Shown here in pieces: positions 11,852 through 58,073 of a stretch of 64,000 bases of DNA. Source of the stretch: Labilithrix sp. (GTDB lineage Bacteria; Myxococcota_A; Polyangia; Polyangiales; Polyangiaceae); NCBI GenBank assembly GCA_019637155.1, contig JAHBWE010000003.1:124001-188000 (forward strand). Reading direction: 5' to 3'. The notes beneath the pieces were generated by a model. It saw only the letters and a list, made by a program, of their open reading frames with translations, had not been told where the DNA came from and searched no databases. Made by a program: the position numbers and the translations under genes. Every line of letters begins with the position of its first letter. The stretch's first letter is position 1.

Positions 11852-11978
11852 AGATCGGACGCCGCGGTAGCCCTCTCGGGGGTCCGGGGCGGCGGAACGC
11901 GCCCCGCGCGCGGAGAGACCCCGGCGGGGAGAGCTCGAGAGGGGCAGACCCTGCCGGCCCCGCTCGAACAAGAAAGCC

Positions 11979-13040
11979 TCAGGGCTGGAGCGCGCGTTCG
12001 GCCCAGAGGTCGCCGCGTTCGGCGAGGGCGCCCTCGACCGTGAAGCGGAAGGTGTTCGCGCCGGGGAGGAGCTCGTTCGCGAGCGCGGGCGTCTCCTCGT
12101 TCATGCCGTACGAGCCGTCGCCGTTCCTGACGAACAGCGCCTCGACGCCGACGGTGGAGTTGGTCGCGCGGAGGACCGTGCCCGCGAGGTCGAGGTACGA
12201 CGCCCACGCGGCGTTGACCTTGCCCTGCAGCTCGGCGCGGCCCGCGCTCGCGCCGTAGACGTTCGCGAAGGGACGGATCTCCCGATCGACGAGCTCCGCG
12301 AAGGCGGTCATCTTCGACGCGACCTCGGGGCCGACCTTGGTGAGGTTGTCGCGGTAGCGATCGCCGCTCTTGATCGCGTTCGCGGTGGCGAGGAACTGAT
12401 CGAGCGCGCGGAGGTCGTTGCCGGCCTGGAACAACTTGGCCTTCGTCGCCTCGAAGGTCGGCGCGCCCGCGCCGGTCTCGAGCGTGATCGGGATCTGCCC
12501 GCCGCCGCACGCCGCCGTCGCGTTGACGCGCGCGCTCCGGAGGAACGACCGGCGGTAGGCCGCGTTCATCACCGGCGAGGCGCCGTCGGTCGGGTCGACG
12601 AGATCGGCCACGACGTTCTCGCCTTCGGCGCTGAAGCGCGTCGACGCCGGCCGCATCGTCGTGTCGACCGCGCCGGTCGAGGTGTTGATCGTGATCGGCG
12701 CCGCCGGGAACTGCTCGCCGAGCATGTTCCCGATCTTCATCAGCGACTCCTCCGTCACACGCGGAGCGAGGACGTACTCGACGTGCGAGTCCCAGAACCG
12801 CGTCCCCTCGAGCGCGCTCGCCGTCCGCTGCGACGGCGTCATCCGCACGTCGACGACGTGAAGGCGCTTCGAGGCGATGAGCCGCTCGCCCTCGGGCGTG
12901 CGAAACAGCACCATGTCCTCGTCCTCGAACATCACGCGGCACGCGCCGGTCGCCGCCTGATCCGCGCTCCCCACCGACTCCGAGCCGCCCGCGCAGCCCG
13001 CAGCCAAGACACACGTCAAGACACCAGCGACGAAGCGCAT
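11979..13040 (-). CDS. Lipoprotein of unknown function
   Basis: 353 residues; the start at 13040 gives MRFVAGVLTCVLAAGC, a standard lipobox leader. The mature protein has a beta-rich first half (CRVMFEDEDMVLFRTPEGERL) and a helical second half (FQAGNDLRALDQFLATANAIKSG, KVNAAWASYLDLAGTVLRA). I do not recognise a family. It stands alone, with convergent transcription downstream and the 13.2-kb structured repeats upstream of its start. A surface or periplasmic location is likely. Confidence 0.6.
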   Translation of the reverse strand: MRFVAGVLTCVLAAGCAGGSESVGSADQAATGACRVMFEDEDMVLFRTPEGERLIASKRLHVVDVRMTPSQRTASALEGTRFWDSHVEYVLAPRVTEESLMKIGNMLGEQFPAAPITINTSTGAVDTTMRPASTRFSAEGENVVADLVDPTDGASPVMNAAYRRSFLRSARVNATAACGGGQIPITLETGAGAPTFEATKAKLFQAGNDLRALDQFLATANAIKSGDRYRDNLTKVGPEVASKMTAFAELVDREIRPFANVYGASAGRAELQGKVNAAWASYLDLAGTVLRATNSTVGVEALFVRNGDGSYGMNEETPALANELLPGANTFRFTVEGALAERGDLWAERALQP

Positions 13041-13173
13041 ACCGCCATGGACGCACACTGTGTGCCCTCCACCCCCTGGTAAAAACCCCAGTGATTTGAG
13101 GCCCACCAGCCGCGGATCCTGGATCCCTGGTGAACGAAAGATCCACCAGCAGCGACCTCGGACCGAAGCTCCG

Positions 13174-13297
13174 GGGGCCCCAGACGCGGCCGCCACAGCG
13201 GGCGCGTAGCGCCCCGAGCGCGAAGCGCGAGGGCCGTGTCGGCGTGTCGGGGGTGGGGGTGTCGGGGGCGAAGCCCCCGACGTTGGGTGATGGACTC
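13174..13297 (+). repeat. Structured intergenic repeat, copy R1 (tandem with R2)
   Basis: First of two tandem copies. It has the 5' stem arm CCCCAGACGCGGCC at 13178-13191, a small hairpin CCGC-CACA-GCGG, a hairpin GGGCGC-GTA-GCGCCC, a GCGC-GAA-GCGC hairpin, then the 3' arm region. In this copy the 3' arm is interrupted by a duplicated GGCGTGTC. It ends with the GAA-loop hairpin (arms GTCGGGGGC and GCCCCCGAC), followed by a unit boundary shared with R2 (GTTGGGTGATGGACTC). It lies upstream of the 11979-13040 gene. Confidence 0.85.
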
Positions 13298-13418
13298 GGG
13301 GCCCCAGACGCGGCCGCCACAGCGGGCGCGTAGCGCCCCGAGCGCGCAGCGCGAGGGCCGTGTCTGGGGTGGGGGTGTCGGGGGCGAAGCCCCCGACGTT
13401 GGGTGATGGACTCGGGGA
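13298..13418 (+). repeat. Structured intergenic repeat, copy R2 (intact closing stem)
   Basis: The closing stem pairs CCCCAGACGCGGCC at 13302-13315 with GGCCGTGTCTGGGG at 13356-13369. All 14 positions pair, one as a G-T wobble. Between the arms lie two or three short hairpins. The GAA-loop hairpin with 9-base perfect arms follows at 13377-13397. Compared with R1 it lacks the GGCGTGTC insertion. The rest of the 13041-13541 spacer shows no gene. Confidence 0.88.
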
Positions 13419-20943: not shown

Positions 20944-21086
20944 GTAGCCTTAAGCCGTCAGGTGGAAGGGCCCGCGAACGCGACCGCCACAGCGGTTGCG
21001 AAGCAACCCGGCGCCTCGCGCCGGGTCGTGTTCGCGGGCGCGGGGGGTGTCGGGGGCGAAGCCCCTGACCGTGAAAGCCAACGACC
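20944..21086 (+). repeat. Structured repeat R3 inside a 143-base filled unit
   Basis: The unit starts GTAGCCTTAAGCCG like its short neighbours, but then holds about 104 extra net bases bounded by TCAGG (20958-20962) and CCTGA (21064-21068), which are inverted repeats. Inside, CCCGCGAACGCGACC at 20971-20985 pairs with GGTCGTGTTCGCGGG at 21024-21038 at all 15 positions, with one G-T wobble. Between them are CCGC-CACA-GCGG, GGTTGC-GAA-GCAACC and CCCGGCGC-CTC-GCGCCGGG hairpins. Confidence 0.88.
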
Positions 21087-21222
21087 GTAGCCTTAAGCCG
21101 TCAGGTGGAAGGGCCCGCGAACGCGACCGCCACAGCGGTTGCGAAGCAACCCGGCGCCTCGCGCCGGGTCGTGTTCGCGGGCGCGGGGGGGTGTCGGGGG
21201 CGAAGCCCCTGACCGTGAAAGC
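21087..21222 (+). repeat. Structured repeat R4, near-identical tandem copy of R3
   Basis: The second filled unit has the same closing stem (21114-21128 with 21167-21181) and the same internal hairpins, offset by 143 bases from R3. It ends at the GTGAAAGC flank and is directly followed by the truncated copy. Confidence 0.87.
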
Positions 21223-21269
21223 GTTCGCGGGCGCGGGGGTGTCGGGAGCGAAGCCCCTGACCGTGAAAT
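21223..21269 (+). repeat. Truncated 3' end of the structured repeat (R5)
   Basis: Only the 3' part is present: half of the closing stem (GTTCGCGGGCGCGGGGG), the GAA-loop hairpin with one arm change (GGGAGC instead of GGGGGC), then CCTGACCGTGAAA. It abuts the stop codon of purH. Confidence 0.8.
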
Positions 21270-42520: not shown

Positions 42521-45500
42521 AGTCGGTGATGCCTGCGCGCTGTTTGCACTCGCCGACGCGCGGGTGGTTTGGGGCGCGGCGGACGCAGGTCACGTAGGCT
42601 TGGATCGCCTGTCTCGCGTTGCCGGTCGCGAGATAGGCGGCGCCGAGCGTGAGCCATGCGTCGGCGTTGGTCGGATCCTCCTGCGTCGCGAGGAACGCGA
42701 GCTGCACCGCGCGCGTGGCCTGCTTCTCGTCGTCGAGCGCGCGCTGCGCGGACTCCGCGATCGACGACGACGCTGCGTCCGCCTCCGGCTGGACCGGGGG
42801 CGTGAACGGCGGCGTCGGGTTCGGATTCAGGATCGGATTCGGATTCGCGTTCGGATCGAGGAGCGTGTTGGGGCGCGGCGGTTCGGGCGGCGTCACGGCG
42901 AGGGTCGCCGCGTCGACGTCGGTGACGACGTTCGCGTCCGCGTCGGCGGTCGGCGAGGGAGGCGGCTCCGACGTGGGCGCGGAGTCCGACGGCGGCGGCG
43001 GCACGTTCGCCGGCGTCTCACTCGGGGCCGCATCGGGCGGCATCGCGAGCTCGAGGCCCTCCTTCGTGTCGTGCTCGCCGCGATAGAGGTAGCGCGCATA
43101 AAGCAGCGCCACGACGCCCGCCGCGATGATGAGCGAGAGCGCCCACGCGACGCTGCGACCGCTCGTCCGCTGCGGCTCGACCTGCGCCCTCGCCGACACG
43201 ACCGGCCTCGCGTCGTCCTTCCTCGCCTTCGCCCCCTCGGCCTTCGCGCCCCCCGCCTTCGCACCCTCCGCCGACGCCGCATCCCCCTTCGACGCCCCCG
43301 CCTTCGCGCCCTCGGACTTCGCGGCCCCCGTCTTCGCGCCCTCCGCCGACGCCACATCGCCCTTCGATGCCCCCACCTTCGCGCCCTCGGACGCCGCCCC
43401 CGCCTTCGATGCCCCCGCCTTCGCATCGGCCGCCGCATCCGCCTTCGACGCACCCGACTTCGCGGCCCCCGACGTCGCCGACCTCGCCCCCTCGGTCGAC
43501 GCCGAATCCGCACCCGCCTTCGCCGCATCGACCGACGCCGCACCCGCCTTCGACGCCCCCGCCTTCGCCGCCTTCGACGCACCCGCCCCCGCCGCACCAG
43601 CCGACGTCGCGGCGCCCGCACCCGCCCGCGCCGCATCGGCCGACGCCGCATCCTTCGACGCGCCCGACGCCCCCGCCGCCGGAATCACCTCCGTCTTTCC
43701 GCCGGGCTTCCCCGCGGGCGGTGGGACGCTCTTCGCGGCAATCGCCTCCGTCTTTCCGCCGGGTTTCGAGGCGGAGGGCTCGCGGATGGTGGCGGGAGGC
43801 GCCTCCTTCGCCGCCTTCGCGGCGGCGTCGGTCGCGGCGGCGGCCTTCGCCACGTCGTCGCGCGCGGCGGCGGCGGCTTCGCGCGCGGCGGCCGCCTCCC
43901 GCTGCGAAGCCGGGTCCTTCTTCACCGCAATCGCCGTCTTCGTCGAGCTCGCCGGCTCCGGCGCTTTCGACGGTCCCGACGGATCGGCGGGGGCCCGCGA
44001 CGCGGCCGGCGGGAGGCGCTGCACCTCGGTCGGCGCCTCCGCCTCCGCCGAGAGCGGGTCGAGCTTCGTGATCTTGGTCGGGATCTCCGTCGGCTCGAAC
44101 TTCTCGGCCGGCGGGGGCAGCGGCGGCGGCGCGGCCGGCATGACCGCGGTCGTGATGCCCGCGAGCGTGTGCGAGCCGTTGGTCGCCGGCGCGGCCGCCT
44201 TCGTCTGGCCGCTCGGAGGACGCGGGGTCGGGAGACCGAGGAAGATCTCGCTCGACTTCACGTCCATCGCCTCGTCGTCGTCGTCGTCGTCCGCCGCCGC
44301 CGCCGGCGCGTGCGCCTTGATGACGGGGACCGCCGCGTTCGAGGCGCCCTCGAGCGGCGGGAACGGCCGCGTCGTGCTGAAGTCGTCGCGCGGCGGCACC
44401 GCCTCCGCCGGCAGCGCGGCGGGCATGAACGGCACCGTCGCCGGGAGATCGCGCGGCGTGGCCGGCGCGGCCGGCACCACCGCCGGCACGCTCGCCGCCG
44501 CGGGCACGAGGAGGCTCTCGAAGTACAGCTTCGAGAGCGTCTGCAACGTCGAGAGATCGTCGAACGGCGAGTCGTCGATGACGTCGGCGAGCGATCGCTT
44601 GCCGTCGAGGAGGCGCAGGATGCCGTTCAGCTCGTCGGGGATCTCGCTGAGCCGCTCGAGGAGCGCGCCGTGATCGACCTCGTAGACGTTGTGGAGCGGC
44701 GGCAGCTGCTCGACGAGGCGCCCCCACTCGTCCGCGCGACGCATCCCCTCCATCACGAGCACGGAGGTGGAGCCCTCGATCACGTCCTCGCGATCGGGCA
44801 TCCGGAAGTCGACCTCGAAGTCGGCCTCGTTCCAGACGAGGAGGCGATACACGGCCTCCTCGCCGCGGAGGATCCCCGCGTATTCGCCAGGTCGAGACGA
44901 GCTCGAGCCGATCTCGGCGTCGATGACCTTGCCGTCGCGGAACCAGACCCAGCCCGTCGCGTGACCGTGCCGGAACGTGATCGCCCCGCTCTTCCGCGCG
45001 ACCTCGAAGGTCTGCAGGAGATCGATGACGGTCATGTCCTGGATCGAGCCGGCGAAGCGCGTGCGGTGCTCGAGCGTGCGGTCCTTCGCGATCGACTCCT
45101 GCGCCCGGCGCGCGAGGACGAGGTTCACGCGCGCGAGGAGCTCGCGGACGAAGATCGGCTTCGTGAGGTAGTCGTCGACCCCGAGCTCGAGGCCGCGGAT
45201 CTTGTCCTCCACCGAGCGATGGGTGGCGAGGAAGATGACGGGGATGTTCGCGAGGTCGCGCCGCTCCTTCATCTTCCGCACGAGGCCGTAGCCGTCGAGG
45301 CTGAGCGGCGACGCCATCACGAGCGTGGTCGTGAGCGAGTGCTCGCCCGACCCCGCGGGGCGGAGGAGCCGCGTATCGCAGATGACGAGGTCCGGCTGCT
45401 GGTGATCGATGACGTCGAGCGCGGCGTGCGCGTCTTCGAAACAGGCGACGTTGTAGCCCGCCTTGCGGAGACTGACCTCGACGACCCGCAGGCTCCGCGG

Positions 45501-53231: not shown

Positions 53232-53235
53232 CTCT

Positions 53236-53341
53236 CGACGTCGGGCTTCGCCCCCGACACCCCCACCCCAGACACGGCCCTCGCGCGGAGCGCTCGGCTC
53301 GCTTCGCGACCGCTGTGGCGGCCGCTTCTGGGGCCCCGACG
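53236..53341 (-). repeat. Structured intergenic repeat on the minus strand (R7)
   Basis: The closing stem is CCCCAGAAGCGGCC (minus strand, 53333-53320) with GGCCGTGTCTGGGG (minus strand, 53279-53266): one mismatch and one G-T pair. The trailing GAA-loop hairpin (GTCGGGGGC...GCCCGAC) lies at about 53239-53258. It starts 5-10 bases after the vWA stop and ends just before the NrtR-like gene. Confidence 0.82.
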
Positions 53342-57598: not shown

Positions 57599-58073
57599 GA
57601 TGGGTCTCCCTCTCTCTTGTCCCGTTGTCCCCGACGTGACGACATTCCCTACAGCACCCACCGTGCCGGAGATGTCCGAGATGTAGGATGTGCTCCCCAA
57701 GCAACAACGATCTGAAAGATCGCATACTTGGAAAATTGCACCAGTGTCGTTCCAGGTGGGCTGGAATATTCCTGTGGACTACACGATCCAGGCTTGGATC
57801 GGGATGGACCCACCTCGCAGATCGCTAAGTCCGCGACCCCACGTGAGCGGGCGGCCTAACTACGCCAGCCGACTCGATCGCCTCAACGCAGGGGCCTGCG
57901 GCCCCTGCACCCCGCTCGCAGCCGTAGGACGCGCGCGAAGACGCGCGCATCCTCCGCTGCTCGCCGATGTGCGCCCTTCCGGTCGGCCCATCTTCGAGAC
58001 GGATCGAGCGCGCGACGGTGCTCGCGAGACGCGCGCGGTCCGGACCGAATTGCGCAGCCGAGCGAGCTGTGGA
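57599..58073. other. Spacer of about 475 bases
   Basis: No convincing gene. It contains the leader of the minus-strand 56156 gene and, at 57888-57908, a perfect hairpin with arms GCAGGGGCC and GGCCCCTGC and loop TGC, without a T-run. The region from 57700 to 57780 is AT-richer than average. Confidence 0.45.

Follow-up and report, generated by a model that had tools for sequence, protein, structure and literature searches.

Small structured repeats that carry no enzyme of their own raise an old open question: how they spread, and whether they shape the ends of messengers. It is raised again here by a set of folded sequences in a soil myxobacterium of the genus Labilithrix. A preliminary description of the window (the whole stretch of 64,000 nucleotides that was analysed) had proposed a dispersed structured element of one architecture at 13.2, 21.0 (two copies and a stump), 53.3 (minus strand) and 55.95 kb. 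All of these copies are located as given there, and the six window copies belong to one family, termed F1, with the following features.

13174..13287, plus strand: F1 copy 1; extra bases interrupt the 3' arm of the closing stem; 88 bits with the covariance model
13298..13403, plus strand: F1 copy 2, intact, a tandem duplicate of copy 1 including the flank; 109.5 bits
13302..13315, plus strand: copy 2, 5' arm of the closing stem P1, CCCCAGACGCGGCC
13316..13323, plus strand: copy 2, hairpin H1, GC-CACA-GC
13324..13338, plus strand: copy 2, hairpin H2, GGGCGC-GTA-GCGCCC; the stem covaries (GC/TT/TC)
13340..13354, plus strand: copy 2, hairpin H3, with a tandem G.A mismatch
13356..13369, plus strand: copy 2, 3' arm of P1, GGCCGTGTCTGGGG, with the conserved G.T
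13377..13397, plus strand: copy 2, terminal hairpin HT, GTCGGGGGC-GAA-GCCCCCGAC
13398..13403, plus strand: copy 2, tail GTTGGG (consensus GTTGA plus A-rich bases)
20968..21075, plus strand: F1 copy; stem GCGAA/TTCGC, base CGACC/GGTCG
21111..21219, plus strand: F1 copy, a tandem duplicate of 20968..21075
21222..21267, plus strand: F1 stump, the end of the 3' arm and the terminal hairpin; 27 bits
53229..53231, plus strand: stop codon TGA of an opposite-strand gene; the 53 kb copy has its terminal hairpin 8 nt away
53234..53337, minus strand: F1 copy with the common A.G stem and a shortened terminal hairpin; 95.9 bits
55925..56033, plus strand: F1 copy; stem GCGAC/GTCGC

The six copies score 80–110 bits with the covariance model, and the next matches in the window are the stump and, at about 57.9 kb, a related type of copy (26 bits). 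The terminal hairpin pattern has six matches in the window against 0.00 expected from shuffles; it does not pick up the 53 kb copy, whose hairpin is shortened. Elsewhere in the window, positions 43206–43625 hold a long direct repeat with a 15-nt period that probably codes for a low-complexity Ala/Pro-rich protein stretch.

The F1 unit is about 105 nt long: a closing stem encloses three inner hairpins, and a linker leads from it to a terminal hairpin with a GTTGA tail. The consensus starts with GGGG and the 5' arm of P1 (common type CCCCAGAAGCGGCC), continues with H1 (GC-NNNN-GC), H2 (GGNNGC-GNA-GCNNCC), a single C and H3 (GA-GCGC-NNN-GCGC-GA), and ends with the 3' arm of P1, the linker TGGGGGT, the terminal hairpin and the tail, after which A-rich bases follow. 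The GAA hairpin had been described as lying just outside the element; it is present as a constant component of the unit. Closing stems that pair at every position, as had been stated for the intact copies, are found only among the rarer versions. The commonest P1 in the genome, CCCCAGAAGCGGCC, which is also the type of the 53 kb copy, carries a conserved A.G mismatch adjoining the G.T wobble, and the 3' arm of the copy at 13174 is broken. The wobble lies at position 6 of the 3' arm rather than three to five positions into it.

P1 and the terminal hairpin are found on the plus strand by both RNA and DNA energy models, and the folding of the copies tested beats at least 199 of 200 shuffles (z between −3.6 and −8.4). 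Both strands fold stably in these models; the plus strand is the more stable one, in line with its G.T wobble, tandem G.A mismatches and GNA loops.

A covariance-model search of the genome and of related Polyangia had been proposed in the preliminary description. Within the genome the copy number is indeed high, with at least 150 places in the model search and a total of at least about 230 copies from exact-arm counts. The two arms of the common stem have 196 and 164 matches and two other 3'-arm types 28 and 7, while the reversed control patterns have none. Copies are dispersed in both orientations; about 40 near-intact ones lie in 864 kb taken without bias, on contigs that are denser than others. 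A total of about 500, extrapolated from two copy-dense contigs, was discarded as too high in view of the exact-arm counts. Head-to-tail arrays carry shared variants and show local duplication. At one locus (L055) a satellite array of GGGGCCCCAAACGCGTAGCAGCAAAAC units lies upstream of F1, and GGGGCCCC is common to these units and the 5' end of F1.

The top candidates scored from 183 other genomes of the order contain no F1 match, F1 is absent from 37 relatives, 11 of them congeners, and a 400 kb congener sample holds no comparable hairpin family. An exact F1 pattern of 29 specified bases has no match in 84,980 species or in viral contigs, in a scan that possibly left the source genome outside. 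The statement that no named family has such a layout agrees with Rfam, where F1 reaches the gathering score of no family and, at E values up to 10, gives only hits of chance level.

Two further families occur in the same genome, each with a copy in the window.

11872..11976, plus strand: F2 copy with a decayed terminal hairpin; the minus-strand ORF 11979-13196 has its stop immediately beside it
57883..57968, minus strand: F3 copy, hairpin GCAGGGGC/GCCCCTGC and GTTGA tail

F2 is about 95 nt long, with a domain different from that of F1, a terminal hairpin TCGAGAGGGC-AGA-GCCCTCTCGA and the tail ACAAGAAAG. It has at least 109 matches in the genome and, elsewhere in the order, two isolated weak partial matches in two genomes, one of them a congener. 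One F2 copy (L269) shows a compensated change from CCGGGG to CCAGGGG together with CCCCGG to CCCCTGG. In F3, GGGGT, the hairpin and GTTGA stand behind differing hairpin domains; there are five copies in the loci read (the window copy and those at L120, L122, L074 and L135), and one of the domains has an unrelated stem of 12 bp. Judged by sequence, F1, F2 and F3 differ from each other and have the same layout, and this common layout suggests that one machinery may serve them all. That F2 and F3 share the layout goes beyond the earlier observation, as does the finding that the terminal hairpin, not the other end, adjoins opposite-strand stop codons.

We regard F1, F2 and F3 as probable non-autonomous mobile DNA repeats, the spread or survival of which depends on a folded single strand. 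For F1, two observations on sequence support mobility: a syntenic site that is empty in relatives, and a copy that lies in frame within a dnaE2-like gene. At the first, a DUF3516 gene is followed in this genome by an F1 copy and a satellite array ahead of the next gene; in four relatives (L211–L214) the same next gene follows after some 10–35 nt without the element, an empty site that is seen at the level of the gene gap, not of the base, with one genome per species. No transposition event between strains was seen. The copy in the dnaE2-like gene (L131:1514-1617) occupies a place where the aligned homologues lack about 37 codons. Further copies lie in frame in a Ser/Thr kinase, between DFG and an APE-like motif (L109, C6:193391), and in an ArsB/CitMHS transporter (L115, C6:318920), and another lies behind the kinase domain of a second kinase gene (L123, C10:65580). 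Coding signal flanks the in-gene copies on both sides, weakly after the last one. Eight copies overlap predicted ORFs, of which four were checked by coding score and Pfam and one also by homologue alignment; the claim that all copies are intergenic holds in the window, while genome-wide a few are in frame inside genes. The flanks of 89 copies show no excess of matching sequence that would indicate a target-site duplication and are weakly biased, the 5' flank towards A/C. The assembly, 97% complete, has no RVT_1 match to a reverse transcriptase, and among the matches listed there is no autonomous partner with matching, separated ends around a transposase gene.

The change of sequence with preserved pairing that had been noted in the window holds genome-wide, and the compensatory change is genuine. 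P1 occurs with the paired blocks AGA/TCT, GCGAC/GTCGC, GCGAA/TTCGC and GGGA/TCCC and with a further paired change from CGGCC/GGCCG to CGACC/GGTCG; H2 stems come in three paired versions (GC, TT and TC at the variable positions) and a longer TTT/AAA form. The P1 block pairs in 136 of 141 distinct copies, three of the five non-pairing stems being parsing errors, whereas 1000 permutations gave 91 on average and 102 at most. Of 35 copies picked solely by a non-standard 3' arm, 32 have a complete structured domain, and about 31 of these carry the matching 5' arm, with L191 as the mismatching exception and truncated or scrambled copies set aside. In alignment A1, 97.3% of the cells pair, compared with 38–51% when the partner is slid; the count of pairs with changes on both sides does not exceed that of shuffles because the rarer P1 versions are misaligned. 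The copies are related by descent and independent events are therefore far fewer than copies; by inspection there are at least 3–4 such compensatory events in P1, 2–3 in H2 and several in H3.

Selection for the fold is not the only process that could produce this pattern. A published study (PMC8794818) describes template switching that rewrites one arm of a hairpin from the other, and DNA template switching between arms, in an element perhaps still mobile, could have made the paired changes in place of selection, a possibility that carries weight while falling short of even. It agrees with the simultaneous change of whole P1 blocks and with H3, where GA has become TC in the 5' arm only, which perfects the stem and leaves the 3' arm as it was. 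However, nearly all copies retain the G.T wobble of P1, 113 of 141 retain the A.G mismatch, and most H3 stems have the tandem G.A, and repeated template switching should remove such mismatches; the narrow layout of loops and stem lengths is maintained as well. The conserved mismatches argue against template switching alone, which may explain part of the compensatory change and competes seriously as the source of the paired changes, not as an account of dispersal. For dispersal, REPIN-type elements moved by the genome's own RAYT-like transposases would be a possible model, as six RAYT-like Y1 transposase genes of two subfamilies are present (L049, L148-L152), the hairpins have 3-nt loops, and F1 resembles REP/REPIN sequences in being a short hairpin repeat with hundreds of copies, sometimes in frame in genes and often close to the ends of genes, a position also reported of REPs (PMC3733652). 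We nevertheless consider this identification unlikely. REP/REPIN sequences are palindromes of 20–40 nt in which the foot of the hairpin bears an unpaired tag, GTAG or similar, they form inverted dimers, and the RAYT gene is flanked by repeats, whereas F1 is a 105 nt unit with a multi-hairpin domain, has no GTAG in its consensus, occurs singly or in head-to-tail arrays without head-to-head dimers, and has no copies in the 1–2 kb flanks of the six RAYT-like genes. These genes share an A/T-rich upstream motif (TATGCTATGCT-like) instead of REP or inverted repeats, and they were rejected as the source of F1 for want of flanking copies and terminal inverted repeats. Congeners with RAYT-like genes also lack F1, although their best proteins are less than 50% identical.

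The position of the elements raises the possibility that they act mainly as mobile messenger 3' ends, as terminators or RNase barriers, and are kept for that role. With gene calls from a simple codon model, the F1 terminal hairpin lies within 20 nt of an opposite-strand stop codon in 31 of 108 copies, mostly at 8–20 nt, compared with two of 108 in which the other end has a same-strand stop within that distance. F2 adjoins opposite-strand stops even more strongly (19 of 31 within 13 nt of the terminal hairpin, three within 20 nt on the other side). Both strands fold stably, and only 25 of 724 genes have a perfect hairpin of at least 8 bp no more than 40 nt from their stop, roughly half of these hairpins belonging to F1 or F2. 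On the other hand, the hairpin read in the messenger sense is not followed by a U-run, the majority of F1 copies are not beside a stop, the G.U, G.A and GNA features favour the opposite strand, and part of the pattern is due to selection against insertions that would disrupt genes where the intergenic gaps are very short, so that a main role as messenger ends is conceivable but rather improbable. T makes up about 13% after ordinary stops in this genome and the F1 tail is A-rich on the element strand, for which reason the tail probably belongs to the element. A conserved, covarying fold with loops and wobbles that favour the plus strand could also describe a free small RNA or a cis-regulatory RNA such as a riboswitch-like family or a ribozyme. 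This is very unlikely for F1, which matches nothing in Rfam at gathering score, is not upstream of one gene class, forms tandem arrays, has in-frame copies inside genes and is missing from relatives; the comparison with F2 and the polarity towards stop codons point to a mobile element behind genes rather than a free small RNA.

Among mobile repeats, the CGTC-tagged REPs have an unpaired CGTC/TGTC tag, a stem of 8–9 bp starting with A/T and a loop of 4–5 (PMC3733652). F1 is similar in that TGTC, a reported variant tag, precedes the terminal hairpin, no transposase gene is attached and in-frame copies occur in replication or repair genes; it differs in that GTC is paired, the loop is 3, the stem starts with G/C, head-to-head dimers are lacking and a structured domain is added. 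Like MITEs, F1 is small, non-autonomous, intergenic, strongly folding and of high copy number, but its termini GGGGCCCCAG and GACGTTGA are not inverted repeats and no target-site duplication was found. ERIC, BOX, bcr and similar families of other bacteria are structured interspersed repeats of about 100–150 nt, each confined to a single lineage and with an uncertain mobiliser; F1 is like them in these respects and appears to be set apart by differences in sequence and layout. Subterminal hairpins, the absence of a target duplication and a TTGA-like 3' end recall IS200/IS605 ends, yet there is no conserved flanking target tetranucleotide, and no transposase gene bounded by F1 ends was found among the matches listed. 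A retron or other reverse-transcribed element would need a reverse transcriptase, and none was detected in this genome. As F1 fails on the defining features that were tested for each named family (PMC3733652, PMC8266576), it is best read as a structure-constrained mobile repeat of the broad REP/MITE kind, within no named family.

For such a mobile repeat, we propose that the folded strand would present the closed multi-hairpin domain followed by the terminal hairpin and the short A-rich tail, and that an enzyme supplied in trans would act on this strand and transfer it. The leading candidate would be a DNA strand-transfer enzyme, of the HUH type (for example a RAYT-like protein) or another one, since there is neither a target duplication nor a reverse transcriptase. 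Copies that persist are mostly intergenic, and in many the terminal hairpin directly follows an opposite-strand stop codon, where the transcript of such a gene would gain a very stable predicted 3' end. A putative effect of F1 on that messenger is plausible. More speculatively, and on balance improbably, one hidden transposition system might move several unrelated folded cassettes, recognizing the terminal hairpin and tail alone, tolerating any folding domain and placing them in a fixed orientation behind stops; if so, the cassettes would amount to a class of mobile 3' ends for messengers.

A single genome holds three analogous families, several matching versions of their stems and a clear polarity towards stop codons, and in F1 selection for structure can be weighed against the rewriting of arms by template switching within one natural family. 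With three families here and congeners essentially clean, both how such repeats spread and whether they shape messenger ends become testable by the comparison of strains.
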